Assembly (NCBI GenBank): GCA_002780065.1 | Contig: PEWQ01000110.1 | Span: 1,089-20,727, forward strand | Source of the DNA: Candidatus Hydrogenedentes bacterium CG07_land_8_20_14_0_80_42_17 | Lineage (GTDB): Bacteria > UBA8481 | Length of the DNA: 19,639 nt | Direction of reading: 5' to 3' | Shown: positions 1 to 15,365 of the stretch, in pieces | How the letters are laid out: every line of letters begins with the position of its first letter | Position numbering within the stretch: the stretch's first letter is position 1 | Notes under the pieces: generated by a model | What the model saw: the letters and a program-made list of their open reading frames with translations, nothing else | Database searches by the model: none | Told to the model about the DNA's origin: nothing | Program-made: the position numbers and the translations under genes

Positions 1-23
1 GGGCTGGGCCTGTTTAGCTTGCG

Positions 24-169: not shown

Positions 170-1840
170 TTACAGCTTTTCCTTTTGGCTTGCAGTCTCG
201 TAAATGAGATCAAGTTTTTCTGTAATTTCAGGCTCCAATTCATCAGCTTTTGAAAAGGATGCTAAAATATAATAGTCACTCTTATTAAATAAAATCGGCA
301 TTTTTCTTGTCTGAAAATATTTGCTAAATACTTTATCTAAAAAGTCATCACTTATTTTGGAATTAATCCACCAACTATGATTTTTATCTTTTAACGCCGC
401 AGGCGGAATCTCATCTTTTATTATATCCGCCATTAATTCCGTATCATGTAGAGAAAATAAATCTTTTGATGGTTCTGAAACATAACGCTCAATAACCTCG
501 GGTATAGGCAAATAATTCTCGATTTCGCGCCTTTTCCACATCATCTCTACTAAGTCGTTTTGCTGAAGTTTTGCATTAATTTTATCAAATAAAGCTACGC
601 CTTTTAGTTTAGACACTCCTTCCTGTAATCCATAAAAGTGTTCCCTTGCAACGCTAGGTAAATTGGTAACATATTTAACAAAAGGGCTTTCTAAATAAGG
701 CAATACGGGATGATTTAAAATTTTTGCATACTCTTTCAAAATTGATAGATCTGTTGACCCTTCCAGATATAGAATCCAGCCCTTTTGCTCTGCAAGCAGA
801 TATTGCTCAAATCCAATTGAGGTTAACGATTTTACTAACTGGGATTTATTATTAACAATGTGTGGCTTTCCGATAAAAGCAATAATTGAACTTTTTTCCG
901 TAGCTTCGTCTAATACGGATATAGAATGTGTTGCAATCATCAATTGAGCATTTTCTCGTTTTAATTTTTCCGACAATATATTGAAAACTTGTTTTTGTCT
1001 TAAAATTTCCAGATGGGCATCCGGCTCATCGAGAAGAATTATGGAATTATTATTAGCGTAGATATAGGAAAATATAAGTAAAATTTGATGAAATCCGCGC
1101 CCGCCATTAGAGAGGTCAAATTTTTTTCTGTTTTCTTCATAAGTCATTGTAATTTTTCCCGTAAAAATATCATATTGAGGTTCGTTTATTGTTATTCCAA
1201 ATAATGTTGCTATTATGTTAGTTAATTCATTCCATTTTTCCGGTTTGCTATTTAATACATACCAACAAAGATTTCTTAAAACATCTGCGGTTTTACCTTC
1301 GCCAATACGACTACTTATTGATCCTAATTCCAATTTATCTTCTTCTCCTGCCAATCCGGACATAGGAGGCAAAAGACCGATTTTTTCTCTCAAAGCAAAT
1401 TTTATATTGTCTTCATGATGGTTGTGATTAATTATCCTGCAATAAAAAGATTCCGAATTTGCATAATCAAATTCAAATCCTAATTTCCAATTCTCACCAT
1501 CGGTAAATCCTTCAACTTCGATTTCTATTTTAATATTTATAGTCTGCTTTCCTTTGCTTTTTCCCGATCCTCTTACAACTAAATCTTTCCATAATTGTTT
1601 TGCCGAAGGGACAGGAATATTGATTAAGTCTTTTCTATTAATTGCTACTCCAACTCTTTTTTTTGCTTTCGATTCCTTTTTAGCTTCTGCCCATTTTGCT
1701 AATCCCAAGCTCCATAAAGTAATTGCCTGCAAAATGGAAGATTTACCTGAATTATTAGGGCCAACAAAGACAACAGTTTGAGACAAATCTAAAGTTGCAT
1801 TAAGTTTTTTGAAATTATTTACTCTTATTTTTCTTAACAT
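170..1840 (-). CDS. OLD-like AAA/ABC ATPase with C-terminal TOPRIM-like region
   Basis: This 556-residue protein has an ABC/SMC-type ATPase head and a C-terminal putative nuclease region, as in the OLD (overcoming lysogenization defect) superfamily. Visible motifs are Walker A GPNNSGKSS (27-35), the signature-like LSNGGRG (243-249), Walker B with the D-loop IILLDEPDAHLE (267-278) and the H-loop ATHS (303-306). After the head come YLEGSTD (358-364), which fits the TOPRIM glutamate, then ALFDK (416-420) and WKRREIENYL (435-444), typical of stand-alone AAA proteins with an OLD-type tail. No UvrD-like helicase (GajB) partner lies beside it, so it is not a Gabija pair as seen here. Such proteins are linked to phage defence or DNA metabolism; the substrate is unknown. 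The gene is AT-richer than its neighbours (a sample line is about 28% GC, against about 55% for one in mutS), which suggests transfer. It is divergent from the lipoprotein operon and has its own promoter. Confidence 0.85.
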   Translation of the reverse strand: MLRKIRVNNFKKLNATLDLSQTVVFVGPNNSGKSSILQAITLWSLGLAKWAEAKKESKAKKRVGVAINRKDLINIPVPSAKQLWKDLVVRGSGKSKGKQTINIKIEIEVEGFTDGENWKLGFEFDYANSESFYCRIINHNHHEDNIKFALREKIGLLPPMSGLAGEEDKLELGSISSRIGEGKTADVLRNLCWYVLNSKPEKWNELTNIIATLFGITINEPQYDIFTGKITMTYEENRKKFDLSNGGRGFHQILLIFSYIYANNNSIILLDEPDAHLEILRQKQVFNILSEKLKRENAQLMIATHSISVLDEATEKSSIIAFIGKPHIVNNKSQLVKSLTSIGFEQYLLAEQKGWILYLEGSTDLSILKEYAKILNHPVLPYLESPFVKYVTNLPSVAREHFYGLQEGVSKLKGVALFDKINAKLQQNDLVEMMWKRREIENYLPIPEVIERYVSEPSKDLFSLHDTELMADIIKDEIPPAALKDKNHSWWINSKISDDFLDKVFSKYFQTRKMPILFNKSDYYILASFSKADELEPEITEKLDLIYETASQKEKL

Positions 1841-1848
1841 ACATAATA

Positions 1849-1877
1849 AGAATAATTCATGTCACCTAAACTATCAA
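1849..1877 (-). promoter_or_regulatory. Candidate promoter of the OLD-like ATPase gene
   Basis: On the minus strand, TTGATA (1872-1877, 5/6 to TTGACA) is followed after exactly 17 bp by TATTCT (1849-1854, 4/6 to TATAAT). Only 8 nt separate the -10 from the ATG at 1840, and no Shine-Dalgarno is present. The start site would then fall at or next to the ATG, giving a leaderless mRNA. Inferred from consensus match only. Confidence 0.5.
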
Positions 1878-1904
1878 TTAAAAATCCAACCTGTGTCTTA
1901 ATAA

Positions 1905-1936
1905 TTGCTGTCTATTCCGGCATAAAATGATAAAAT
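1905..1936 (+). promoter_or_regulatory. Candidate promoter of the lipoprotein-pgm-mutS-mutL operon
   Basis: TAAAAT (1931-1936, 5/6 to TATAAT) ends 8 nt before the ATG at 1945. The best -35-like element, TTGCTG (1905-1910), is 20 bp upstream of it, longer than ideal, so the -35 is weak. There is no Shine-Dalgarno before the ATG, again suggesting a very short or absent leader. The region is AT-rich, so chance matches are possible. Confidence 0.35.
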
Positions 1937-1944
1937 AACTTATT

Positions 1945-2403
1945 ATGAGTAGCGCAATAAAATGTAAAAGAAAAAGTATTTTCATGGTTGCATTGTTATC
2001 AATTACTTTTTTAACTGTGTCTGCGTGTTCGGCTCCAATACGCGATACTGAAGCTAAATTGAATACTACTGCTTTTGCTCTGCCTTTTGAAATGAAGTCG
2101 GGTAGGGAAGAATACAAGTGGCTGTCAGAGGGGATTAGCATAACCTTCAACGACAGATTCCGAAGGAGAGGTATTCTTGCCGGTTCTACCGAAACTGCGA
2201 GAATTTGTGTAACCGGAGAATATTGGGTCAGAGATGACAGAATCATCGTGACTGCTGTGGCAGGAAAAAGAATTCGAACATTTGGGACTTATCAATGGGA
2301 ATGGAATTCTAATGCTGACGAAACTCTAATGCCATTTTTATTTTCCCTCGTGAGCGAAGTAGAAAAAGATATGGAAAACAAAGGATATATTTCGAGAAGA
2401 TGA
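1945..2403 (+). CDS. Small predicted lipoprotein, unknown function
   Basis: This 152-residue protein begins with a basic n-region (KCKRK), a hydrophobic stretch and the lipobox VSAC, placing the lipidated cysteine at residue 28 in this reading. It is therefore predicted to be exported by Sec and anchored in a membrane. The mature part is hydrophilic with several charged and aromatic residues, and I recognise no family. An internal ATG at 1984 would give a shorter but still plausible signal peptide; the first ATG is kept because it supplies the positive n-region and sits 8 nt after a -10-like box. The stop overlaps the next gene's ATG (ATGA), so it is almost certainly co-transcribed and probably translationally coupled with the phosphohexomutase. 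That link does not reveal its role. Confidence 0.75.
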   Translation: MSSAIKCKRKSIFMVALLSITFLTVSACSAPIRDTEAKLNTTAFALPFEMKSGREEYKWLSEGISITFNDRFRRRGILAGSTETARICVTGEYWVRDDRIIVTAVAGKRIRTFGTYQWEWNSNADETLMPFLFSLVSEVEKDMENKGYISRR

Positions 2404-3917
2404 CTTCTACTTCAGGCCTGCGTTTTGGGACAAGCGGCCTAAGAGATACAGTCGAGCGAATGACCGATTTGGAATGCTACGTTGCGACTCGTGGATTTCT
2501 CGATTATCTTTCCTCGATAAATAAATTCACTTCGAATATGAAAGTTCCTATAGCCGGAGACCTTCGCCCAAGCACTCGCAGAATTCGAAGAGCTGTTGCT
2601 CTTGCAATCAGAGATTCCGGCGGAATTGTCGACGATCAAAGTCTTGCTTCGAGCCCAGCGCTTTGCCTTTACGCATTGAACCGCGGAATTCCTAGTATTA
2701 TGGTTACGGGCAGCCACATTCCCGCAGATCGAAACGGAATTAAATTTACTATGCCTGACGGCGAAGTTATGAAATCTGACGAGTCGGAAATTTTGAATTG
2801 CATCGAATCTCAACGAAAAAAATTGCCTCTGCTATTTTCTAACGACGGAAAATTTCTACCGGAGATAGAAAAAGAAGCTGAACGACTGCTATGGCACTCT
2901 GAAGAATTGCGTTCTGCAGATTTCGAATACTGTGAGCGTTACATTTCGTTTTTTGGGAAGTGCCTTTCTGAAATAAAAATGTTTTTTTATCAGCATTCTG
3001 CCGTAGGGCGCTCTGCAGTGACAAATATTTTTTCTGCTCTTAGCGCCGAACTTTTTGCTTCACCGAAGAGCGATGATTTTGTAGCGATCGATACTGAGAG
3101 CGTATCGAAAAACACTCTGGACATTTTCAGGAAGGTAATGGACGAAGAGGGAATAGATATTGGAATTACGACTGATGGTGATTCTGACCGGCCTTTGCTT
3201 GTATACCGAGAACTCGATGGAACTATAACTCATTTGACAGGCGATATTCTCGGTCTGCTGTCAGTGATTGCGCTCCGGCATTTTGGAGTGAAAATCAATT
3301 CCGTTGTTGTTCCGATATCGGCAAACGATGCAATTCAAAAGAAGCTTGAGTCCGAAGGCATATCGGTGCACGCGACCAAAATCGGTTCGCCTTATGTGAT
3401 CGCGGAAATGAACAAAGAGATAGCTAATGGAAAAAATTCAGTTGCGTGGGAATCAAACGGCGGATTCATACTTGGAACAGATATATTTTTGAATGGAAGT
3501 AAATTAAGAGCGTTGCCTACTCGAGATTCAATGCTTCCTCTGATTTTGACTTTGTCTTATGCAAAATATATTGGAAAGAGTATTTATCAAATAGTTTCTG
3601 AATTGCCCATGCGGTTCACTGCGGCTGATCTAATCAAAAACTTTCCGAATGAAAAGGGGAGAGCAGTAATTGAATCTTTGACGCATGAAAGATTGAAGAG
3701 AGTTTTACATAATGCCGGACTAATTACGTCGATTCAAAATATAAACTATTTGGACGGAGTTAGAATTTTATTTGAAAACGGTGAAGTAATGCATTTCAGA
3801 CCCTCGGGAAATGCTCCGGAGTTCAGATGCTACGCTGTAGCGGACTCAAAAAAACGCGCGGAAGAAATTGTAGAGTTCGGGTTAAAAAAAGTGATACCAT
3901 TGCTAATTGAAGATTAG
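2400..3917 (+). CDS. Alpha-D-phosphohexomutase (phosphomannomutase/phosphoglucomutase family)
   Basis: The enzyme interconverts hexose 1- and 6-phosphates through a phosphoserine intermediate in the cytoplasm, feeding nucleotide-sugar synthesis. All four family signatures are visible in its 505 residues: the N-terminal GTSGLRD (10-16), the active-site loop TGSHIPADR with the phosphorylated Ser105, the metal loop DGDSDR (259-264), and the C-terminal phosphate-binding RPSGNAPEFR (467-476). The sugar-recognition loop reads ESNGG (351-355) followed by LPTRD, rather than the classic GEMSG. I recognise this as a subgroup variant, so sugar specificity (mannose, glucose or glucosamine) cannot be called. 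The start ATG overlaps the lipoprotein stop by 4 bp and leaves only 9 residues before GTSGLR, which supports it. It lies 18 bp upstream of mutS. Confidence 0.92.
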   Translation: MTSTSGLRFGTSGLRDTVERMTDLECYVATRGFLDYLSSINKFTSNMKVPIAGDLRPSTRRIRRAVALAIRDSGGIVDDQSLASSPALCLYALNRGIPSIMVTGSHIPADRNGIKFTMPDGEVMKSDESEILNCIESQRKKLPLLFSNDGKFLPEIEKEAERLLWHSEELRSADFEYCERYISFFGKCLSEIKMFFYQHSAVGRSAVTNIFSALSAELFASPKSDDFVAIDTESVSKNTLDIFRKVMDEEGIDIGITTDGDSDRPLLVYRELDGTITHLTGDILGLLSVIALRHFGVKINSVVVPISANDAIQKKLESEGISVHATKIGSPYVIAEMNKEIANGKNSVAWESNGGFILGTDIFLNGSKLRALPTRDSMLPLILTLSYAKYIGKSIYQIVSELPMRFTAADLIKNFPNEKGRAVIESLTHERLKRVLHNAGLITSIQNINYLDGVRILFENGEVMHFRPSGNAPEFRCYAVADSKKRAEEIVEFGLKKVIPLLIED

Positions 3918-3935
3918 GTTTTAAAGGAAAGACTG

Positions 3936-6542
3936 ATGGCAGATGAGACTCCACTTCTAAAGCAATATCGCGCTGTCAAGGCGGAGCATCCTGATGCAAT
4001 TTTGATGTATCGCATCGGAGATTTCTTTGAGATGTTCGAAAGGGACGCTGAAATTGCGGCGCGTGAGCTGGAATTGACTTTGACCTCGAAGCCAATGGGA
4101 AAGGCCGGCCGGCTTCCTCTTGCCGGCGTGCCGCATCATGCAGTTGAATCTTACATTGCAAGACTAATTCGCAAAGGATATCACGTAGCGCTATGCGACC
4201 AAACTGAAGATCCTAAAAAAGCGAAAGGACTTGTCAAAAGAGAAGTCGTTCGAATAATTACTCCAGGCACATATTCAAGCTCCGACGGCAGAGAAAATAA
4301 ATTCATTGCCGCATTTAATTTTGTCTCGGATGATACTTCGAAAAAACATAAAAAATATTCTCTCGCTATTTGTGATCTATTGACAGGAGAGATGTATTAC
4401 GGCATCTACGACACTTTAGACGAAATAAACAGCGCTCTTGCCGGATTTAGAACATCCGAAATATTAATCCCTGATTCGAACCGCTCAATCGATAATCAAT
4501 CGATTGACGATTTTTTACTTTCATTCGGTTTTGAAACTCATATTACCAAACTGCCTTCATGGAGATTTGGCGCATCACATGGTGAAGAAGTTCTGAAGAA
4601 TCATTTCGGAGTTGAAACTCTAATTGCTTTTGAACTCGATGAGAATGCATTGTCCGCGCTCGGCGCGCTCTTCTCATACCTCATAGAAACTCAAAAGTCT
4701 TCTCTAAAACACATTGCTGTTCTGACAAGAATAGGATTGAACGATACAGTTAAAATCGATGCCGCCACACTGCTTCAATTAGAGATATTAGATTCTCCTT
4801 CACGCGATACCGAAGCAACTCTCCTTTCATCTATGGATAAAGCGGTTACTGCTATGGGTTCCAGACTTATTGCGCGCAGAATTGCGGCTCCAATCAGAGA
4901 TGCTGTAGAGATCAGAAAGCGATTGGACGCAGTTGAAGCCTTCTTTTCAGACAGCATCATGAGAGCGGAAATGAGAACACTTTTGAAGAAGGTTTACGAT
5001 TTGGAACGGCTTTCCGGCAAGGTTGCGCTCGGCAGAATCACTCCTCATGAGGTCGTTGCTCTGGCAAGTTCGCTTGAAGCGATACCTGCAATAATAAATG
5101 CGGCAGACCATCCGGCTCTTGAAGATATTAAAAATGATGTAGACCCGATTCCTGAATTAATCGAGCTCATACGAAAGAAGCTTGTTGAAAATCCTCCGCT
5201 TGATATTGGAGAGGGTCCGCTTTTTAGAGATGGAGTCAATTCGTTACTTGACGAATTGAGATACGGGTCGCGAGAGTCGAGGCAGTGGATTGCAGGGCTT
5301 CAGGAGAGGGAGCGAGCAAGAACAGGCATCTCTTCTTTGAAAGTTGGATTCAATAATGTTTTTGGATATTTCATAGAGGTGACGAAAGCAAATCTTGATA
5401 AAGTGCCTTCTAACTATATCAGAAAGCAGACAATGACAAGTGCCGAGCGTTATTACACTGAAGAGTTAAAGCATCATGAAGAGATTGTGCTCGGCGCAAA
5501 AGAGAAGATTACGGAATTAGAGATAGAACTTTTTAATCGATTGAGAGAAGAAATTTTAATTTTCCTGCCCAGAATCCAGAAAACAGCTCATAAGATCGCC
5601 GTATTCGATTTATCTGCGGCGTTCGCTCAAGCGGCGGCGGATCGACATTACACGAAACCTGATGTTATCGAATCCGATGAACCGTTCATCAGGATTGAAG
5701 GCGGCCGCCATCCGGTAGTCGAGGCATTACTCTCGGCAGAATCAAGTTTTGTTCCTAATGACACGCTAATGGACTCGAAGAATCGGTTTATGATTTTGAC
5801 CGGCCCGAATATGGCAGGCAAGTCGACTTTTATTCGTCAGACTGCGGTCATAAGCCTGATGGCTCAGGCAGGCTCTTTTGTGCCTGCCGCCAGATGCGTA
5901 ATTTCGCCATTCGACGGCATTTATGCCCGCATAGGCGCTTCGGATAGGCTTGCGCGCGGGCTTTCGACTTTCATGGTAGAGATGATTGAGGCGGCAATGA
6001 TATTGAGAAACGCGACGAAAAAATCGCTGGTCATTCTCGACGAAATTGGACGCGGGACTTCAACGTTTGACGGGCTCGCGATTGCATGGGCGATTGTGGA
6101 GGCGCTCTCATCGCGCGGGTGCATCTCTTTGTTTGCAACTCACTATCATGAACTGACTGCTCTTGCCGAAGAAATTGATGGAGTCTTTAACTGCACAGTT
6201 TCGGTGAAGGAATGGGGAGACAAAATTCACTTTCTTCATGCTATAAGAAACGGAGCGGCGGACAGGTCTTATGGAATTCAGGTTGCGGCGCTTGCAGGAG
6301 TTCCGAAACATGTTTTAGAGCGGGCAAAAAATATTCTTTCTTCCTTAGAAGATGGAGATATGAAACGGCATAGCAGTGAATCGGATCAACTCTCTCTTTT
6401 CTATTCTTCAACTGAGCCGAATGAAACTAATTCTTCAGAAAAAACCGTTCTTGACGAACTGAGCAAACTCGAACCCGATTCTATTTCTCCTAGAGAAGCT
6501 CTCGATTTGATTTCAAAATGGAAGGAGAGTTTGAAGAGCTGA
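3936..6542 (+). CDS. mutS: DNA mismatch repair ATPase MutS
   Basis: MutS scans DNA as a dimer and recruits MutL at mismatches and small loops. The 868-residue length is normal. The mismatch-reading Phe-x-Glu motif is present as FFE (30-32, inside GDFFEMF). The ATPase has Walker A TGPNMAGKS (622-630), Walker B LVILDE (698-703), the signature region RGLSTFMVEM between them, and the H-motif ATHYHEL. Near the C-terminus QLSLF (818-822) matches the beta-sliding-clamp binding motif of MutS proteins. A Shine-Dalgarno AAAGGA at about 3924-3929 precedes the ATG with good spacing. Its stop shares one base with the mutL start (TGATG), giving tight coupling of the two repair genes. Confidence 0.98.
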   Translation: MADETPLLKQYRAVKAEHPDAILMYRIGDFFEMFERDAEIAARELELTLTSKPMGKAGRLPLAGVPHHAVESYIARLIRKGYHVALCDQTEDPKKAKGLVKREVVRIITPGTYSSSDGRENKFIAAFNFVSDDTSKKHKKYSLAICDLLTGEMYYGIYDTLDEINSALAGFRTSEILIPDSNRSIDNQSIDDFLLSFGFETHITKLPSWRFGASHGEEVLKNHFGVETLIAFELDENALSALGALFSYLIETQKSSLKHIAVLTRIGLNDTVKIDAATLLQLEILDSPSRDTEATLLSSMDKAVTAMGSRLIARRIAAPIRDAVEIRKRLDAVEAFFSDSIMRAEMRTLLKKVYDLERLSGKVALGRITPHEVVALASSLEAIPAIINAADHPALEDIKNDVDPIPELIELIRKKLVENPPLDIGEGPLFRDGVNSLLDELRYGSRESRQWIAGLQERERARTGISSLKVGFNNVFGYFIEVTKANLDKVPSNYIRKQTMTSAERYYTEELKHHEEIVLGAKEKITELEIELFNRLREEILIFLPRIQKTAHKIAVFDLSAAFAQAAADRHYTKPDVIESDEPFIRIEGGRHPVVEALLSAESSFVPNDTLMDSKNRFMILTGPNMAGKSTFIRQTAVISLMAQAGSFVPAARCVISPFDGIYARIGASDRLARGLSTFMVEMIEAAMILRNATKKSLVILDEIGRGTSTFDGLAIAWAIVEALSSRGCISLFATHYHELTALAEEIDGVFNCTVSVKEWGDKIHFLHAIRNGAADRSYGIQVAALAGVPKHVLERAKNILSSLEDGDMKRHSSESDQLSLFYSSTEPNETNSSEKTVLDELSKLEPDSISPREALDLISKWKESLKS
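6522..6527 (+). promoter_or_regulatory. Shine-Dalgarno AAGGAG deciding the mutL start
   Basis: AAGGAG lies inside the 3' end of mutS, 14 nt before the ATG at 6542. It is just downstream of the in-frame ATG at 6518, so it cannot serve that earlier codon. The spacing is long but the match is good; GAAGAG at 6533-6538 is a closer, weaker alternative. Together with the canonical MutL N-terminus, it argues for 6542 as the true start. Confidence 0.55.
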
Positions 6543-8290
6543 TGATACACAGACTGGACGAATCAACGATAGTCAGAATTGCCGCTGGCGAGGTAATAGA
6601 GCGGCCTGCGTCGGTAGTTAAGGAATTGGTCGAGAATTCTTTGGACGCCGGCGCTAAAAATATTTCTATACGAATTGAACGCGGCGGTCTTGGGCTCATT
6701 GAAATTTCGGATGACGGAATCGGCATGACGGAAGAAGAGCTGCCTATTGCAATAGAACGGCACGCGACATCAAAGATAGTATCTGCCGACGATTTGGAAA
6801 ATATTTCCACAATGGGATTTCGTGGAGAAGCTCTTTCAGCTATTTCTGCCGCCGGACATTTAACAATTGTGACAAAGAAAAAAGGCTCGGAAGGCCGGAT
6901 GCTGAAACTTTCTGACTCGTGGAAGCCAAATGACAAAGCCGGAATTGAAATATTACCTCAGGGTAGAGCAGAAGGGACAACTGTGATTCTCAGAAACCTT
7001 TTTCAAAAAACTCCTGCTCGATTAAAATTCATGAAGTCTGAAACTGCAGAATTTTCGAAAATTTCTGAAATTGCTGAAAGAATAGCTCTAGCGCGGAATG
7101 ACGTTTCGATTGAATTATTTCGTGAAGGTAAAAAAATATTCAGAACTCCAGGCACAGGCGATTTACGCGCCACCGTTTCGGAACTTTTTGGAGCAGACCT
7201 TGCGAAAGAATTGATAGAAGTTTCTGAGCGCGGTGGAGATATTATTATTGAAGGAGCAATTGCTCCTCAGCATATTTCGCGCAAGAATCGAACCGGACTT
7301 TACTACAATATATCAGGAAGACCGATTGCTGATAAAAGCATCGTTCACGCGATTGTGCAGGCTTATGAAGGCATTATGCCTCAGGGAAATTTTCCAATCG
7401 CTTTCATATCGATTGCAATACCTCCTTCAGATGTCGATGTAAATGTGCATCCCGCAAAAGCGGAAGTCCGATTCAAAGATCCTTCTAAAATTCATCGCGT
7501 CATTGTTCAGGTTTTGAGGTCGAGACTGCAGAGAGGCATTTCTGTAAAACCAATTTCGAATGATGATTTTAATTTGCAGGCTTCTAAAATTGATAGAGAT
7601 TCAAATGCGCCTTATCGCAATCAGGTTTTCTCCGCAATTTTTGATTATGAGACTAAAAGGGAAAATCTTGGCACAATTACTCCAATAAAAGAAATTTCTG
7701 ATGAGAGATTATCATTGCGATTTATTGGTGAGATTGCCGGCAGATTTATTTTAGCTGAAGGGTTTGACGGACTCTACCTAATTGACCAGCATGCGGCTCA
7801 TGAGAGAGTTATCTTCGACAAATTGATGATTCAGATTCAGAATGAAGAGATTGTTTCCGCCCCATTTTTGACTCCTATGCTGATAGAAGTTACTCCGTCC
7901 GAACGCGCGATAGCTGAGGATGCTGTCGAATTATTTTCTGAAATTGGTTTCGAAATTGAAATATGGCCGGACTCTATTGCGATTAAATCAGTACCGGCGC
8001 TTTTTGCTAATCTTGCTAAGGCAGATGAAATTATCAGGAGCGTCATTGAAAATTTAAAGGAGATCGGAGTTGGAGGAAATGAATCAGAATTGAAAGCTCC
8101 TTATCATAAAATCGCAAAACTTGCATGTAAAGCCGCTGTGAAGGGAACAGAGCGAATGACTGCCGAAGAAGCATCAAAACTTATTTCCGATTTACTTTCG
8201 ACAACTGATCCCTCGGCCTGCCCTCACGGTAGACCTACTATGATCAAACTTACAATCGAAGAATTGGATAAGCGATTTTTGAGGACATAA
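6542..8290 (+). CDS. mutL: DNA mismatch repair protein MutL, endonuclease type
   Basis: MutL is the GHKL ATPase that links MutS recognition to strand incision. From the ATG at 6542 the protein has 582 residues and begins MIHRLDESTIVRIAAGEV, matching the canonical MutL N-terminus; the ATG at 6518 would only add 8 non-conserved residues. GHKL motifs are visible: ELVENSLDAGA (motif I), DDGIGM (II), GFRGEAL (III) and GTTV (IV). The C-terminal domain carries endonuclease-type motifs: DQHAAHE (415-421), ACKAAVKG, and CPHGRP (560-565). The last acidic position of the DQHA(X)2E(X)4E motif is Asp426 rather than Glu, a conservative change. No mutH is seen, which fits an intrinsic nicking activity. The gene follows mutS with a one-base overlap. 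A small inverted-repeat element begins immediately after its stop codon. Confidence 0.97.
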   Translation: MIHRLDESTIVRIAAGEVIERPASVVKELVENSLDAGAKNISIRIERGGLGLIEISDDGIGMTEEELPIAIERHATSKIVSADDLENISTMGFRGEALSAISAAGHLTIVTKKKGSEGRMLKLSDSWKPNDKAGIEILPQGRAEGTTVILRNLFQKTPARLKFMKSETAEFSKISEIAERIALARNDVSIELFREGKKIFRTPGTGDLRATVSELFGADLAKELIEVSERGGDIIIEGAIAPQHISRKNRTGLYYNISGRPIADKSIVHAIVQAYEGIMPQGNFPIAFISIAIPPSDVDVNVHPAKAEVRFKDPSKIHRVIVQVLRSRLQRGISVKPISNDDFNLQASKIDRDSNAPYRNQVFSAIFDYETKRENLGTITPIKEISDERLSLRFIGEIAGRFILAEGFDGLYLIDQHAAHERVIFDKLMIQIQNEEIVSAPFLTPMLIEVTPSERAIAEDAVELFSEIGFEIEIWPDSIAIKSVPALFANLAKADEIIRSVIENLKEIGVGGNESELKAPYHKIAKLACKAAVKGTERMTAEEASKLISDLLSTTDPSACPHGRPTMIKLTIEELDKRFLRT

Positions 8291-8416
8291 GGGGTCAGGC
8301 TTGAACTTTTTTACTTTTTTTGTAACCACGAATAGAAATACTTCTAATTAGAGTTATAAATGCCACAAGTTTTTGAAATGAAAAAAGAAAAAGTAAAAAA
8401 GTTCAAGCCTGACCCC
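8291..8416. mobile_element. Small MITE/REP-like inverted-repeat element between mutL and glyQ
   Basis: A 126-bp non-coding element has perfect 29-bp terminal inverted repeats. The left arm (8291-8319) begins GGGGTCAGGCTTGAACTTTT and the right arm (8388-8416) is its exact reverse complement. The 68-bp centre is AT-rich with no evident gene. It is flanked by TAA on both sides (8288-8290 and 8417-8419), which could be a 3-bp target duplication; the left TAA is the mutL stop codon. Ends of the GGGGTCAGG type remind me of repeat families dispersed in bacterial genomes and mobilised in trans, but I cannot verify that here. As RNA it would form a long hairpin, with no clean U-tract after it, so it may stall transcription or block RNA decay without being a standard terminator. 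Confidence 0.75.
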
Positions 8417-8425
8417 TAAATACTC

Positions 8426-8453
8426 TTGCTCGAATTTGCATTTTCGTTATGAT
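8426..8453 (+). promoter_or_regulatory. Candidate glyQ promoter
   Basis: TATGAT (8448-8453, 5/6 to TATAAT) ends 8 nt before the glyQ ATG, with a weak -35-like TTGCTC (8426-8431) 16 bp upstream. No Shine-Dalgarno precedes the ATG. The predicted start site falls at or very near the ATG. The promoter lies wholly downstream of the inverted-repeat element, so glyQ probably starts its own transcription unit. Confidence 0.4.
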
Positions 8454-8461
8454 TCTAACTT

Positions 8462-9373
8462 ATGAATCTGCAAGAAATAATATTGAAGCTTTCGGATTTT
8501 TATTCGAAAAAAGGTTGTATTATTGTTCAACCTTACGATACGGAAAAAGGAGCAGGCACATTTTCTCCTCATACATTTTTGCGTTGTCTCGGGTCTGAAC
8601 CTTTCAATGCCGCGTATGTTGAACCTTCGAGAAGACCTACGGATGGCAGATACGGACAGAATCCAAACAGGCTTCAGCATTATTACCAGTATCAAGTCAT
8701 AATGAAACCTGCTCCTGAAAATGCTCAGGACATTTATTTGGAATCGCTTATAGCATTAGGACTTGATCTTTCCGAGCATGATGTGCGCTTTGTGGAGGAC
8801 GACTGGGAGTCACCGACTTTGGGCGCGTGGGGACTTGGCTGGGAAGTTTGGCTGGACGGAATGGAAATAACTCAGTTTACATATTTCCAACAGGCAGGCG
8901 GAATTGATCTTGAACCGTTTTCTCTTGAACTAACTTATGGGCTGGAACGCATCGCAATGTATCTTCAAGGCGTGGATAATGTCTATGACGTAAATTGGGG
9001 AGGAGGAATGAAATATGGAGACATTCATCTTGCGACAGAATTTCAGTTTTCTCATTTCAACTTTTCTCATTCCGATTGCAAATTTTTATTCCAATATTTC
9101 GATTGGTGCGAAAAAGAAGCCAAGCGTTTAGCAGAAACTTTTGTTGAGGATCAAAATGGAATTAAAACTCCGCTCGTTTTTCCCGCATACGATCACGTTC
9201 TAAAAGCTTCGCATACTTTTAACTTGCTGGATGCTCGCGGTGCGATTTCCGTCACCGAACGTCAGGCGTATATCGGCAGAGTCAGAAATATTTCGAAAAG
9301 AGTAGCTCAGGTATACCTAGCGTGGCGTGAAGCCCTGGGGTTTCCGCTCTCTAGAGCAAAGGCTGGACAATAA
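8462..9373 (+). CDS. glyQ: Glycyl-tRNA synthetase alpha subunit
   Basis: The alpha subunit of the bacterial alpha2-beta2 glycyl-tRNA synthetase holds the class II catalytic core that activates glycine. The 303-residue length is normal. The sequence is strongly family-like: [15 protein letters not shown] (12-26), [16 protein letters not shown] (50-65, containing the class II motif 2 arginine), [18 protein letters not shown] (127-144), and [15 protein letters not shown] (156-170). The ATG at 8462 leaves the usual short N-terminus. It has no visible Shine-Dalgarno and sits 8 nt after a -10-like box. The stop shares one base with the glyS start (TAATG), so the two subunits are coupled for stoichiometric synthesis. 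Confidence 0.98.
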
Positions 9374-11418
9374 TGAAGTTCCTTTTGGAAATCGGAACCG
9401 AAGAGATTCCGGCAGGTTTTTTGCCTAACGGCAGAACAGCTCTAAAAAAATCGTCCGAAGATATTTTAATAAAATCAGGTCTGACAAATTTTGTAATCAC
9501 GGAGTACGGTTCTCCAAGACGACTTGCAATTCTTGCCGATAACCTTCCTCTAAAAAGTAATGATTCGATTGAAACTTACAAAGGCCCGCCGCTACGCGTT
9601 GCATTCGATTCTGACGGCAATCCGACTAAAGCGGCAATTGGATTTGCTAAAAAAGTCGGAGTAAACATTTCTGAGATTTCAAAAGAAGGAGAGTATCTTA
9701 TTGCTAAGGTTCACATTCCCGGCAGAACTTTAACTGAAATTCTTTCCGACGCAATTCCTTTGATTATCGAGTCGATACCATGGCCTAAATCAATGAGATG
9801 GAATAATAGCGGAAAGAGATTTGTAAGACCTGTCCGCTGGATTGTTGCGCTTCTTGAAAACAACATTGTTAATGCAGAATGGTCAGGAGTGATTGCGGGA
9901 AGAAACTCTTTTATTCGGCGAATGCCGAACGAAAAAGATTTGATGTCGCGGCCTGTTCCGATTAATTCTGCATCTGAATACGTTGATACTCTGCGGAATG
10001 CAAATGTAATTGTAGATCATAGAGAACGTATAAAATTTATTCGCGATGGAATCGAGAAAAAAGCGAAGTTAATTGGAGCCGAGCCTGTACTTCTTTCCGG
10101 AGAAGAAACATTTCTTTATCTCTGTGATCATACGGAAGACCCTGAGATTATGGTTGCAGATTTTGATACGGCTTTTATTACGGCTCCGAGAGAAATTTTA
10201 GAACTTACAATGTGGCGTCATCAAAAATATATTCCTCTAATTAAAAATGGGAAATTGATTCCGAAATTTATATTGGTGTCGAATCGAACATTTGGACATT
10301 CTTCCAATGATGAAGCAAATGAAAGACGCTATTTAAATGTCATATTAGGAAACAGGCGCGTGCTTTCAGCTCGACTTTCCGACGCAATATTTTTTTGGAA
10401 GACTGACATTGAACGGCCGCTGATATCACGAGCCGAAGACCTTGCAAAAGTGACCTTTCAGAAGGACGCCGGGACAGTTCTGCAACGGGTTGAACGCATA
10501 ACTGCTCTTGCATTGCGCATTGCGCCGATTTTGAAGCATCAGGACTTGAAACGTGTAGAGAGAGCAGTTCGACTTTCAAAAGCTGATTTGACTACAAAAT
10601 TGGTATTCGAGTTTCCTGAACTGCAGGGAGTTATAGGAAAAAGAATTGCGCTTCATCAAGGTGAAGACTTAGAAATTGCAGAATCGATTGAGGAGCATTA
10701 TTGGCCTATCGGAGCTGACCCGAGAATACCGAAGGGATTGTCTGCGATAGTTGCTCTTGCTGAGAAGGCTGATACTCTTCATTCGATTTTTGGAGTCGGA
10801 CTTGAACCGACGGGTTCGGCTGATCCGTACGGATTGCGTCGCGCCGCGCTTGGAATAATTCGGATACTTCTCGAAAATAAAATTTCATTTGATATCACAA
10901 ATCTTATTTCAGGTGAAAAGGTTTTGAACTTTGTGAGACAGCGTCTGGTTAATTACATTTCGGAAACTTTGAAAATAAATATTGCAGTGCTCGAAGCTGT
11001 TGCCGCTTCCGGTTGGCATAATTTCGTAGATTTTGAACTGCGCGCGATTGCAGCATCCAAATTGAAAGAACGTTCGGACTTCGAAGATATGGTCACCTCT
11101 TTCAAACGTGTGATGAATATTCTCGACTCTGAAGAAGGACGCTCCTCAGAACCTTCGCAGGAAAAATTTGTGGAGCCGGCTGAAAAAGACTTATTCAATG
11201 CAGTGAGCATTCTGGATCGAAACGTTGCCGAAAATCTTTCGAATGGAAATATTGAAGAGGCTCTCGATGAGATTGCTAAAATGAGACCGCTAGTTGATAA
11301 ATTTTTCGACGAGGTTCTTGTGAATACCGATGATCTTTCTCTTCGCATTAATAGGAAAGCTTTGCTCAATCGGCTCGGTTTGATCTTTCTAAGGATTATG
11401 GACTTTTCAAGACTGTGA
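9373..11418 (+). CDS. glyS: Glycyl-tRNA synthetase beta subunit
   Basis: The beta subunit binds tRNA-Gly and completes the alpha2-beta2 synthetase with GlyQ. It is 681 residues, near the family's usual size. The characteristic N-terminus FLLEIGTEEIPAGF (3-16) is present, as are the central HQGED...IEEHYWP region (from residue 428), belonging to the HD-like part, and SADPYGLRR (482-490). The C-terminal approximately 100 residues correspond to the DALR anticodon-binding domain. The ATG overlaps the glyQ stop by one base. The stop overlaps the GTG start of the following VKOR-DsbA gene (GTGA), so the operon continues. Confidence 0.97.
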   Translation: MKFLLEIGTEEIPAGFLPNGRTALKKSSEDILIKSGLTNFVITEYGSPRRLAILADNLPLKSNDSIETYKGPPLRVAFDSDGNPTKAAIGFAKKVGVNISEISKEGEYLIAKVHIPGRTLTEILSDAIPLIIESIPWPKSMRWNNSGKRFVRPVRWIVALLENNIVNAEWSGVIAGRNSFIRRMPNEKDLMSRPVPINSASEYVDTLRNANVIVDHRERIKFIRDGIEKKAKLIGAEPVLLSGEETFLYLCDHTEDPEIMVADFDTAFITAPREILELTMWRHQKYIPLIKNGKLIPKFILVSNRTFGHSSNDEANERRYLNVILGNRRVLSARLSDAIFFWKTDIERPLISRAEDLAKVTFQKDAGTVLQRVERITALALRIAPILKHQDLKRVERAVRLSKADLTTKLVFEFPELQGVIGKRIALHQGEDLEIAESIEEHYWPIGADPRIPKGLSAIVALAEKADTLHSIFGVGLEPTGSADPYGLRRAALGIIRILLENKISFDITNLISGEKVLNFVRQRLVNYISETLKINIAVLEAVAASGWHNFVDFELRAIAASKLKERSDFEDMVTSFKRVMNILDSEEGRSSEPSQEKFVEPAEKDLFNAVSILDRNVAENLSNGNIEEALDEIAKMRPLVDKFFDEVLVNTDDLSLRINRKALLNRLGLIFLRIMDFSRL

Positions 11419-12575
11419 AAAGATCATATCTCTGGTTGATCCTATCGGTTGTTGCGGCGCTTTGCGCTCTCGACTCGATTTGGCTTTCTGTGCTTCAGCG
11501 CGATTTGGACAGCCTCGCTTCTTACTGCCACATAGGAGAAGGTTTTGACTGTCTGCCCGCCTTGAAATCCAGATACGGAAAACTCTTTGGAATTCCGCTC
11601 TCGAATTTTGCGGTCGGACAATATCTGCTTATCTTCGCTCTTTCAGTTCAGCCTGTATTGCAACTGAAACGCTCAGACAGAAATTCTTTTTTACTGCTTC
11701 TGCTGAATGCGTGGGGAACAATTTTCTGCTTTTGGCTGGTTTATATTTCTTACGTCAGATTGAAGGCTTATTGCCCATTCTGCCTGGTTCTGCATATTTT
11801 AACTCCTGTTTTATTTTTGATTTCGTTTTTACTTTTTGCTCAACGCAAAATTTCAATTCGTGAAATTTTTAAGTCTGAATGGATATCAATAAAGAACAAT
11901 AAAATTATCGCGTTAGGAATTATTGTTGCATTGCTGATGGCTGTAGTTGGAGTTCCTTGGGTTCACTATAAAGCTAGAGAAAGACTCTTAGACGAGAGCC
12001 CGGCATATAAACAGATACTCGAAGGCAAGTATCCAAAGTTTGAAAAACTTAATGAATTGTTGGGAGAACGAGCGTTTAGAGGCACTAGCGACGCTAAAGT
12101 GACCATTGTAGAATTTGCGGATTTTATGTGCCCTATTTGCAGTGAGAGCAAAAGAGTTTTTGAAGACCTTATGAAATCTTATGACGTAAAACTTATTTTT
12201 GTACCGTATCCGCGCTCACGTGAATGCAATCCGACAGCGAAAAGCGACATACCTAATTCATGTTATGCGGCTCTTGTTGCTGAATTCGCTTCTCGCCGCG
12301 GAAAATTGTGGGAAACTTACGACGCGATATTTGATGACCCTGAAATATTGAAGCAAGATAGGGAAGGCGAATTGGCTAGAATTGCCGGAGCTTCAAATAT
12401 GGCCGAGATAACCAATGATACTCAGGCGGTAGCAGATTTGCAGAGAGACATTGCAATTGCGAATATATCCGGAGTGAAGCATACGCCTTCGATTTTTATT
12501 AATAACATGGGATTGGAAGGCATGCCTGACGAATGGTTTTTGTTTGAAGCGGTAGATAAAGAAAGCAGGCGATAG
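11415..12575 (+). CDS. VKOR-DsbA fusion, disulfide bond formation membrane protein
   Basis: This 386-residue protein fuses an N-terminal vitamin K epoxide reductase (VKOR) domain to a DsbA-like thioredoxin domain. It should oxidise exported proteins and pass electrons from the thioredoxin cysteines to quinone through VKOR, so one polypeptide replaces a DsbA/DsbB pair. The VKOR part has membrane segments at about 6-25, 66-84, 92-113 and 123-142. Its loop cysteines are Cys38 and Cys46, with Ser63 in GIPLSN and the redox pair CPFC (120-123). Another membrane segment at about 164-181 leads to the thioredoxin domain, with CPIC (239-242) and the cis-proline in HTPS (Pro358). Two further cysteines, 271 and 283, may form a structural disulfide. 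The GTG start overlaps the glyS stop by 4 bp; no in-frame ATG precedes the first membrane segment. Confidence 0.93.
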   Translation: MKRSYLWLILSVVAALCALDSIWLSVLQRDLDSLASYCHIGEGFDCLPALKSRYGKLFGIPLSNFAVGQYLLIFALSVQPVLQLKRSDRNSFLLLLLNAWGTIFCFWLVYISYVRLKAYCPFCLVLHILTPVLFLISFLLFAQRKISIREIFKSEWISIKNNKIIALGIIVALLMAVVGVPWVHYKARERLLDESPAYKQILEGKYPKFEKLNELLGERAFRGTSDAKVTIVEFADFMCPICSESKRVFEDLMKSYDVKLIFVPYPRSRECNPTAKSDIPNSCYAALVAEFASRRGKLWETYDAIFDDPEILKQDREGELARIAGASNMAEITNDTQAVADLQRDIAIANISGVKHTPSIFINNMGLEGMPDEWFLFEAVDKESRR

Positions 12576-12597: not shown

Positions 12598-13896
12598 ATG
12601 GAACGGTATGAATTAATCATAAGATTTTTTGAGGAGATTGGAGCTTCGAGAGAAGCTGAAATGTATCTTAAACTCTTCCAGAAGGGCGAGCCCCAGAGAT
12701 TCGCCGTTATTGAACTCACAAGCGATATTTCCAGTTTATCGTTGCATATTCTTTCGCTTCAGCTTGCGTTTCTATCTTCTCTGGATCTTTATCCTGTCAT
12801 TGTTCATGGTGTCTCTTTAGCTGATCAAAAAAGAAAACAAGGAAAGTTTATTCATTGGCTGGACGGCTTGACTAAAAGAAAACCTTTGCCGGAACGGGAT
12901 GAAATTTACAAGGCTTCGGAAATGACGCTTGCTCTTAATGAAACGCTTGTTTCTTCGCTCAACGTAAATGATGTGGAAGCGGCAGGTCTTGTCGGAGGCA
13001 TTTTTCATCGAGATGAGAATGATCACATTCATGTTCATACAGCTCAAATATCAAAGTCGATTAGAAAAGATACCTTGCCGATCGTTGCCGCAACGTCTTC
13101 TCAAGAACCGATATGCAAAGAAAAAATTAATAGTTCACCTTTGAGATTATTCGATGCAACAAAAGCTCTAGTGGAAAAACTTAAGCCTAGAAAAATAATT
13201 AAAATCCGAGAGTTTGGTTCTTTGAGGTCTTCAAACAATTCTCCAATTGAATATGTGAATTTAAAACTGCATAAAGAACAATTTATGAATTCAGATATGA
13301 TGTTGAAAGAAGACAAACGAATCATTTCTGAATCAGCTTTGCTTTTGGAACGGCTTCCCAACCGAACAATTGTTGAAATTTGTAGTGCATCAAATCTTCT
13401 GAGAGAACTTTTTACTCAAAAGGGCGCAGGCACTCTTATTAAGGCAGGCCGGAGCATAAAAATTTATGATTCTTTAGAGGATTTGTCGTCAGTCAGGCTG
13501 AGAGCATTGATTCAAAAAGCGTTCGGCAGAAGTTTGATTCGTTCTTATTTTACAAAACAAAAAGAGAAGTTTAAGACAATTATTGTTGATCCTGATTACA
13601 AAGGAGCCGTTATCGTAAAAGAAGTAGAAGGACTGAACTATCTCGATAAATTTGCTGTTCGGCCTGAAGCTAGAGGAGAGGGGATAGCTACCGATCTGTG
13701 GCAGATGCTTCTTCACCATCATGATTCCTTCTTCTGGCGAAGCAGACCTGACAATTCGATAAACGGTTGGTATTTTGAAAAAGCTTCAGGATGCGTCAAA
13801 ACCGATAAATGGTTTGTATTTTGGAGAAATCTAACTGAAGCGGAAATAAATAAAGCTATTGAATTGGCTCAAGCGATTAAACCGACTTTGATTTGA
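12598..13896 (+). CDS. N-acetylglutamate synthase, amino-acid-kinase-like domain plus GNAT (DUF619) domain
   Basis: The 432-residue protein has the layout of vertebrate and Xanthomonas-type N-acetylglutamate synthases: an acetylglutamate-kinase-like N-terminal domain and a C-terminal GNAT domain of the DUF619/NAT type. It should acetylate glutamate with acetyl-CoA, the first step of arginine synthesis. The acetyl-CoA loop is RGEGIA (359-364), and the substrate region shows RPDNSINGWYFEKASG (NGWYFE at 389-394) followed by WFVFWRNL. The linker GAGTLIKAGRSIKIYDS is also family-like. In the kinase half, PVIVHG (66-71) is followed by VSLAD instead of the glycine-rich GGGP loop, and the usual NVNAD motif near the phosphate site reads KINSSP. 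Kinase activity is therefore doubtful, and a separate argB would be expected elsewhere. GGAGG precedes the start. Its last 20 bp overlap the convergent flippase-like gene. Confidence 0.87.
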   Translation: MERYELIIRFFEEIGASREAEMYLKLFQKGEPQRFAVIELTSDISSLSLHILSLQLAFLSSLDLYPVIVHGVSLADQKRKQGKFIHWLDGLTKRKPLPERDEIYKASEMTLALNETLVSSLNVNDVEAAGLVGGIFHRDENDHIHVHTAQISKSIRKDTLPIVAATSSQEPICKEKINSSPLRLFDATKALVEKLKPRKIIKIREFGSLRSSNNSPIEYVNLKLHKEQFMNSDMMLKEDKRIISESALLLERLPNRTIVEICSASNLLRELFTQKGAGTLIKAGRSIKIYDSLEDLSSVRLRALIQKAFGRSLIRSYFTKQKEKFKTIIVDPDYKGAVIVKEVEGLNYLDKFAVRPEARGEGIATDLWQMLLHHHDSFFWRSRPDNSINGWYFEKASGCVKTDKWFVFWRNLTEAEINKAIELAQAIKPTLI

Positions 13897-15184
13897 CTAT
13901 TCTGAATGCCGAACCTGCGCTTATCGAAAATGCTATCCAATACATCATACTGGTCGATAAAGCCACTCCGCTCAAACCGAGATGCGGTTCCAATATTGCA
14001 TTTAATATCAATATCGATAATAGAGAGAATCCTGAAATCGCGCCGACAATTTTGTTTTGATTCATTGCAGTCAGCAATCGCTGGCTGATTACCATTCCGA
14101 TGTACGCAGGCAGTTGCAAAAGAAAAAGTTGTTGAACGGCAGTCACTTTTTCAATTTCAATAATTCCGAAAGAGCCGCCTGCAAAGAGAAGTGCCACGAG
14201 TTCTTTGGATAACCAAATCAACACTGCGACTACGGGTACGCTAATAATTAAACTTACCAAAGTGTATTTTGCCCACACCCTCGCACATTCTTTTTTTTCG
14301 GATTTTGCAAGCAGTTCAGAAAAGTGTGAAAGTATCGAAGCTCCAAGCGGAACGGCAGAGAGCGCGATTAAGAGATACGGAAGCCTCATTCCATAATACA
14401 AAATAGAAATACCTCCGCTTCCGGATAATGTTGCAAAGGCTTGTTCTACCAGTGAAGTGCAGAACATAAGAAAGGTTCCAATTGAAAGAATGAATGATTC
14501 ACCTGCGAGTTTTCGGCATTCTTTGGAAATATTAAATGTAATTCTCGATAGGATTTTTGTTCGGTTTAAAATCCAAAATGAAAGCAGAAATTCAAATAGA
14601 ATTCCGACGCACATACAGATAACGAATAACTTAATTCCTATTGAATTCTTAAACGTGAAAAGAAATAGAACAGTAAGTAGAGGAGTAATTCCTGGAATAA
14701 TGGCAGAAGAAAAGAAACGCTTCTTCGACTGCAAGACTCCTGTAAGAATCCATGCAGGCCCTGAAATGATTATGAAAGGGAAGAGCTGAATCAGAATATC
14801 TATAACATTTGAACGAAGTGTCTCGTTGAAACCCGGAGCTAAAAAGGGCATGAAAATCCATGCGAGAGGAATTATTGCAATGCCTGAAAGAAGCGAAATC
14901 GCGACCGATAAAATTAAACTTTCTGTTACAAATCGCGAAACCTTTTCTTCACCGTCTTTGGATACTTGCGAAAGAGTTGTCACCAGCACTGCTTGCATAG
15001 CAAAAAACAAAACATTTACCGGAAGCATTGAAATATTAAACGCGATGAAAAAAGTGTCGAGCTCGCTGGAAACTCCAAAAACATTTGCAGTAATTATGCT
15101 TTGAATGAATCTGATTCCTTTGACTAAAATACTTGCTCCGAGGAAAAAGAAAGCTCCTTTTAATATGGATTCTTGAGTCTTCAT
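13877..15184 (-). CDS. MurJ/MviN-family (MOP superfamily) flippase-like membrane protein
   Basis: A very hydrophobic 435-residue protein with roughly a dozen membrane segments. Family features are visible: ANVFGVSSELDTFFIAF (33-49), LAPGF after the third segment, GVLQSKKRFF, and a GMRLPYLLIALSAVPLGASI stretch. MurJ flips lipid II; other MOP members move O-antigen or other undecaprenyl-linked sugars. It is shorter than typical MurJ (about 510 residues, 14 segments). By eye, Asp43 matches E. coli Asp39, but arginines matching Arg24 and Arg52 and an acid matching Glu273 are not apparent. It may therefore be a paralogue for another lipid-linked sugar rather than the essential lipid II flippase. 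No symbol is given for that reason. No Shine-Dalgarno is visible before the ATG. It converges on, and overlaps by 20 bp, the N-acetylglutamate synthase gene. Confidence 0.8.
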   Translation of the reverse strand: MKTQESILKGAFFFLGASILVKGIRFIQSIITANVFGVSSELDTFFIAFNISMLPVNVLFFAMQAVLVTTLSQVSKDGEEKVSRFVTESLILSVAISLLSGIAIIPLAWIFMPFLAPGFNETLRSNVIDILIQLFPFIIISGPAWILTGVLQSKKRFFSSAIIPGITPLLTVLFLFTFKNSIGIKLFVICMCVGILFEFLLSFWILNRTKILSRITFNISKECRKLAGESFILSIGTFLMFCTSLVEQAFATLSGSGGISILYYGMRLPYLLIALSAVPLGASILSHFSELLAKSEKKECARVWAKYTLVSLIISVPVVAVLIWLSKELVALLFAGGSFGIIEIEKVTAVQQLFLLQLPAYIGMVISQRLLTAMNQNKIVGAISGFSLLSILILNAILEPHLGLSGVALSTSMMYWIAFSISAGSAFRIVKSKSV

Positions 15185-15192
15185 TTATCGTG

Positions 15193-15223
15193 ATTATTCT
15201 GAGGAAAAATTTGGATAACGCAA
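15193..15223 (-). promoter_or_regulatory. Candidate promoter of the MurJ-family gene
   Basis: On the minus strand AATAAT (15193-15198, 5/6 to TATAAT) ends 8 nt before the ATG at 15184. The -35-like TTGCGT (15218-15223) is 19 bp upstream, so its spacing is loose. The 8-nt gap repeats what is seen at three other transcription-unit-leading genes in the window. Confidence 0.35.
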
Positions 15224-15335: not shown

Positions 15336-15365
15336 TTGACAAAGCATTTCAATTCCAGCTACTCT
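15336..15365 (+). promoter_or_regulatory. Candidate polC promoter
   Basis: A perfect TTGACA (15336-15341) is followed after 18 bp by TACTCT (15360-15365, matching TATAAT at 3/6, at the T, A and final T). The ATG at 15378 is 12 nt beyond the -10 and has no Shine-Dalgarno, so the leader would be about 5 nt at most. The -35 is convincing; the -10 is weak. Confidence 0.4.

Follow-up and report, generated by a model that had tools for sequence, protein, structure and literature searches.

Start-abutting sigma-70-type promoters and probable leaderless initiation in a minority of leading genes of an uncultured Hydrogenedentes bacterium

Genes and upstream elements of the window

The window analysed here is the whole stretch of 19,639 nt (C206:1089-20727) taken from the assembly of Candidatus Hydrogenedentes bacterium CG07_land_8_20_14_0_80_42_17, which is fragmented (2.39 Mb in 207 contigs, 86.9% completeness). 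The genes and upstream elements under study are collected in Table 1; the window also holds mutS, mutL and an N-acetylglutamate synthase gene. A preliminary description of this DNA had reported that the genes of the OLD-like ATPase, the lipoprotein, GlyQ and the MurJ-family protein lack a Shine-Dalgarno (SD) sequence and carry a -10-like box (TATTCT, TAAAAT, TATGAT and AATAAT, respectively) ending 8 nt before the ATG, that polC has a TTGACA and a -10 box 12 nt before its ATG, and that mutS, mutL and the N-acetylglutamate synthase gene have purine-rich ribosome sites. All of these observations were reproduced. Upstream of the first four genes and of polC we detected no anti-SD pairing (duplex energy +0.2 to +1.7 kcal/mol); the values for mutS, mutL at ATG 6542 and the N-acetylglutamate synthase gene were -5.7, -9.7 and -10.5 kcal/mol. 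The mutL ATG at 6542 overlaps the mutS stop and is preceded by a strong SD, GGAGAG (window 6518-6545), and it is probably this codon, not the longer ORF start at 6518, at which mutL begins.

Table 1. Coordinates of genes and candidate upstream elements in the window
Feature	Position	Strand	Details
OLD/AbiEii-type AAA ATPase gene	170..1840	-	Pfam AAA_21/AAA_15; no SD
Putative OLD-like gene promoter	1849..1877	-	-35 TTGATA (1872-1877), 17 bp, -10 TATTCT (1849-1854), 8 nt, ATG 1840
-10-like TAAAAT	1931..1936	+	8 nt before lipoprotein ATG 1945; no fitting -35
Small putative lipoprotein gene	1945..2403	+	Pfam: no match
Putative glyQ promoter	8426..8453	+	-35 TTGCTC (8426-8431), 16 bp, -10 TATGAT (8448-8453), 8 nt, ATG 8462
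glyQ (glycyl-tRNA synthetase alpha)	8462..9373	+	Pfam profile; no SD
MurJ-family flippase gene	13877..15184	-	Pfam MurJ
AATAAT	15193..15198	-	8 nt before MurJ-family ATG 15184; not TANNNT; no -35 at 16-18 bp
Putative polC promoter	15336..15365	+	TTGACA (15336-15341), 18 bp, TACTCT (15360-15365), 12 nt, ATG 15378; no SD

Two of the four genes, glyQ and the OLD-like ATPase gene, combine a -10 box with a matching -35 element, and their 8-nt distance predicts a leader of 0-2 nt. The start codon of glyQ is backed by the Pfam profile, whose position 1 corresponds to residue 3, and by the GlyQ of a genome of the same order (G001, the order-mate), which is 81% identical and begins at the same residue. 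Upstream of the OLD-like gene a G at -2 could serve as the transcription start and would give a 2-nt leader; this gene is probably leaderless or has a leader of 2 nt. At the glyQ start of the order-mate we found TAGGCT ending 10 nt before the start, likewise with no SD; in unrelated genomes the starts were ambiguous in the glyQ upstream regions. The lipoprotein gene probably starts at ATG 1945 rather than 1984, since only the former retains the basic n-region of the signal peptide. The boxes upstream of the lipoprotein and MurJ-family genes are unproven as leaderless promoters, and polC, whose layout would give a leader of some 6 nt, looks short-leadered.

Several further features were observed in the window. 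A near-perfect inverted repeat with AGGGGTCAGGCTTGAACTTTTTTACTTTTT arms (8290-8418) separates the mutL stop from the glyQ promoter. In 945 kb of the source genome the 15-mer GGGGTCAGGCTTGAA of this repeat has 10 copies, spread over 6 loci, and it is absent from the sampled part of the order-mate, so that it looks like a mobile repeat of the MITE or REP kind. The left end (1-120) holds repeated GTAGCCCAAAGCCTGCGRCTACC-like units that resemble short palindromic repeats. A VKOR-DsbA-type fusion gene (11415-12575) lies in line with glyQ-glyS, and the gene order glyQ-glyS-VKOR is kept in the order-mate.

Position of the -10 box, linked -35 elements and Shine-Dalgarno sequences

The genome-wide analysis covered 945 kb, about 40% of the assembly, in which 722 genes were called. 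To keep the choice of start free of bias from the upstream sequence, starts were picked from nothing but coding potential and start-codon type; some starts are nevertheless misplaced by the caller, for example that of the lipoprotein at 1984 rather than 1945. We compared 276 operon-leading with 307 operon-internal genes. The spacer was defined as the number of nucleotides between the end of the -10 box and the start codon, -35 coupling as a TTG 16-18 bp upstream of the box, and the full structure as TTG-16..18-TANNNT-6..8-start, with 300 dinucleotide shuffles as the null. SD sequences were called by a strict 4-mer test genome-wide and by anti-SD duplex energy for the window genes. An unsupervised motif search of the regions upstream of leading genes found chiefly the SD, and TATAAT did not emerge from it unaided. 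Since a free promoter mixture model was weakly identified, above all in the order-mate, we based the analysis on TANNNT as a fixed pattern, with the -35 element as an independent signal.

TANNNT boxes proved to be locked to the start codons of leading genes at a distance of 6 nt. A box at -12 to -7 was present in 30 of the 276 leading genes against 8.3 expected (p = 2e-9; dinucleotide shuffles gave a mean of 7.6 and a maximum of 15), with a shoulder of 15 and 16 boxes at spacers 7 and 8. The peak persisted when only unambiguous ATG starts were used (12/89 vs 2.7, p = 2e-5), and no significant spacer-6 peak was detected in operon-internal genes (8/307 vs 4.9, p = 0.12). The position-locked TANNNT that the preliminary description had proposed to look for across the genome was thus found, coupled to a -35 element, exclusive of the SD and present in a second genome as well; its distance, however, is 6 nt and not 8. 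The shared 8-nt distance did not hold as a rule: matches of at least 4/6 to TATAAT were at background level at spacer 8 upstream of leading genes genome-wide (30 vs 26.7, p = 0.28), and TANNNT was mildly raised there (16 vs 8.3, p = 0.01). The full structure, by comparison, was observed 27 times against a null of 1.7 (maximum 6). For spacer 8 with a -35 TTG at 16-18 bp the count was 7 against 0.56 expected (maximum 4), which marks spacer 8 as a genuine but small class that becomes clearly significant only once the -35 element is required. Two of its seven members, judged by layout, are the promoters of glyQ and the OLD-like gene, the only ones of the four original examples with such a -35 TTG.

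The -35 element was found at the expected distance from the locked boxes. A TTG lay 16-18 bp upstream in 17 of the 30 spacer-6 boxes (control distances gave 1 and 3) and in 10 of the 31 spacer-7/8 boxes, compared with 18/165 background boxes. The profile of promoters selected on the -10 box alone showed T76/T73/G40 at -35 to -33, a pyrimidine at -1 in 79% and an A at +1. A strict SD was found in none of the 30 genes with a spacer-6 box, against 25% of all leading genes and 38% of internal genes, and the anti-SD is intact at the 3' end of the 16S rRNA (CACCTCCTTT). For several genes with a locked box, namely those for SucC, RecR, a thiolase, GlgC, RpoZ and PycB, the start codon fits the family profile.

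Three individual loci may be mentioned beside these counts. Just left of the window, a family-2 glycosyltransferase gene (L003:70-1005) is preceded by TTGACA-16-TAATGT-6-ATG, which has the look of a textbook leaderless layout. The genes at L015:10877-12589 and L021:2829-4187, whose starts are likely leaderless, encode proteins in which an N-terminus resembling the ATP-cone of ribonucleotide reductases is followed by a uridine-kinase-like domain, possibly an uncommon fusion.

Similar results were obtained with the order-mate, the sole genome of the same order in the comparison, whose GC content is 57% against 42% in the source genome. Its spacer-6 peak (8 vs 1.0, p = 1e-5) was accompanied by -35 coupling in 7 of 15 boxes with spacers 6-8. 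The thiolase orthologs share the same layout in both genomes (TTGACT-17-TAGCCT-6-ATG and TTGCCC-17-TAGATT-6-ATG), and concordance between orthologs of the source genome (G000) and the order-mate was weak overall, as 3 of the 61 pairs were positive in both genomes (Fisher p = 0.016). The remaining genomes returned among 60 relatives are no closer than 'same domain' by collection placement, and the GenBank phylum label (Hydrogenedentota) may therefore not hold. A scan of genome contigs with MutL gave no match, and one with a VKOR-DsbA alignment returned the order-mate contig only. With the same pipeline, 300 kb of Escherichia coli K-12 showed no peak at spacers 6-8 (2 vs 9.2 expected) and 300 kb of Deinococcus deserti plasmid P1 showed one (11 vs 2.5).

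Probable leaderless initiation and competing explanations

We consider it likely, with a probability of roughly 0.87, that a minority of the leading transcription units use sigma-70-type promoters abutting the start codon and are translated by leaderless initiation, beside initiation at SD sequences. In the mechanism we propose, these units would carry an ordinary promoter of the form TTG(-35)-N16..18-TANNNT(-10) with a spacing of 6 nt, or in fewer cases 7-8 nt, between the -10 box and the start codon. Transcription by RNA polymerase would begin on the A of the ATG or 1-3 nt before it, leaving the mRNA no room for an SD, and the ribosome would recognise the 5'-terminal AUG with the initiator tRNA. 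An SD and the intact anti-SD would serve the operon-internal genes and many of the other leading genes. The window would contribute glyQ and the OLD-like ATPase gene, both with spacer 8. The sequence itself shows how the promoters are built, that they are locked to the start codon and that they exclude the SD; from this we infer the 5' ends and the leaderless translation.

Leaderless or near-leaderless initiation very probably operates in 13-30% of operon-leading genes, as estimated from the box counts. In the source genome the direct excess of TANNNT at spacers 6-8 corresponds to 13% of all leading genes and to 18% of those with unambiguous starts, and in the order-mate to 7%. Since the match of genuine -10 boxes to TANNNT is partial, we infer by way of correction that the share is probably 15-30% of leading genes. 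The wide use of leaderless initiation suggested in the preliminary description is supported in part, but the extent is that of a minority (about 13-18% of leading genes by direct excess) with the SD retained, and the SD remains the larger mode. It is doubtful that leaderless initiation is a major mode, used with full -35/-10 promoters by at least a quarter of leading genes including the core genes glyQ, sucC, recR and rpoZ. If it were, the leaderless expansion would extend beyond the actinobacterial and Deinococcus groups into a deep, almost unsampled lineage.

The alternative that survives best is one of very short leaders in place of true leaderlessness, with transcription starting 1-6 nt upstream of the start codon, notably at spacer 8 (glyQ and the OLD-like gene) and at polC. 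We regard it as possible but rather unlikely. Canonical transcription starts lie about 7 nt past the -10 box, which counts for short leaders, as do the shoulder at spacers 7-8 and the polC arrangement TTGACA-18-TACTCT-12-ATG. Against it, the most frequent spacer is 6, the spacing that places the canonical start on the A of the ATG, with a pyrimidine at -1 and an A at +1; at glyQ, too, the A of the ATG is the first purine 7-9 nt past the box. Promoters with spacers 7-8 could nevertheless give leaders of 1-2 nt rather than none.

It is very unlikely that the signal arises by chance, in that AT-rich upstream DNA is full of TATAAT-like boxes and four of them at 8 nt were a coincidence picked out post hoc. 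Some 10% of the positions before leading genes hold a match of at least 4/6, spacer 8 is not enriched by that measure, and the AATAAT of the MurJ-family gene and the TAAAAT of the lipoprotein, which has no -35 element, are compatible with chance. For the class as a whole, chance was rejected on the genome-wide lock, the -35 coupling, the shuffles and the replication in the second genome. Least probable of all, and hardly to be credited, is that the T/A signal is a translational enhancer: A/U-rich recruitment of ribosomes of the S1 type has been proposed for Bacteroidota, and such a non-SD leadered mode may apply to some of the many leading genes with neither an SD nor a locked -10 box, but an enhancer needs neither a TTG 16-18 bp upstream nor one fixed spacing, and since both were observed it was rejected as the source of the locked signal.

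Known leaderless systems and other genomes

Preferred over these alternatives, leaderless initiation at start-abutting promoters is of a kind already described in Deinococcus and Actinobacteria. Zheng et al. 2011 (PMC3160421) described genes with a TANNNT whose first T lies about 12 bp before the start as leaderless (TA-led) in 207 of 953 bacterial genomes of many phyla; the signal and its reading are the same as here, and this lineage is not among the groups that they name. The motif of Deinococcus radiodurans is placed some 6-7 bp before the ORF (PMC12340547). As described in that paper, and in de Groot et al. 2014 as cited there, the leaderless genes of Deinococcus-Thermus resemble those described here in having TANNNT and no SD, and in occurring beside a class with GGAG ribosome sites. 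On D. deserti P1, unlike here, where the -35 element is clear at 16-18 bp, it was found in 0 of 11 boxes with spacers 6-8, a small sample. Usage in the source genome also appears lower than in D. deserti, for which up to 60% of genes are given as leaderless (PMC9031893). In Mycobacterium and Streptomyces leaderless mRNA serves around 20-25% of genes (PMC9031893; for M. tuberculosis, PMC3898074); those mRNAs were mapped by RNA, whereas the evidence presented here comes from sequence. A full-text literature search combining leaderless with Hydrogenedent* found no paper. What appears to be new is the poorly sampled lineage, together with unusually clear -35 elements.

An uncultured lineage would thereby join the bacteria that mix SD and leaderless initiation, and a 20-kb window combined with genome statistics can detect such a mode without RNA. 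For this lineage, starts and promoters should be predicted with a leaderless model, and no start of a leading gene should be moved up- or downstream in search of an SD that is absent.

A count over the whole genome that needs no annotation, of TTG-N19..21-TANNNT-spacer-ATG, gave 130 sites at a spacer of 6 nt against 59 at 12 nt. The excess of spacer 6 over spacer 12 passed the corrected threshold in 7 of 60 sampled genomes, and the source genome had the highest excess per Mb. A strong excess was also observed in five others (G030, G026, G041, G036 and G020), which on this count are likely to represent further lineages that use leaderless initiation.
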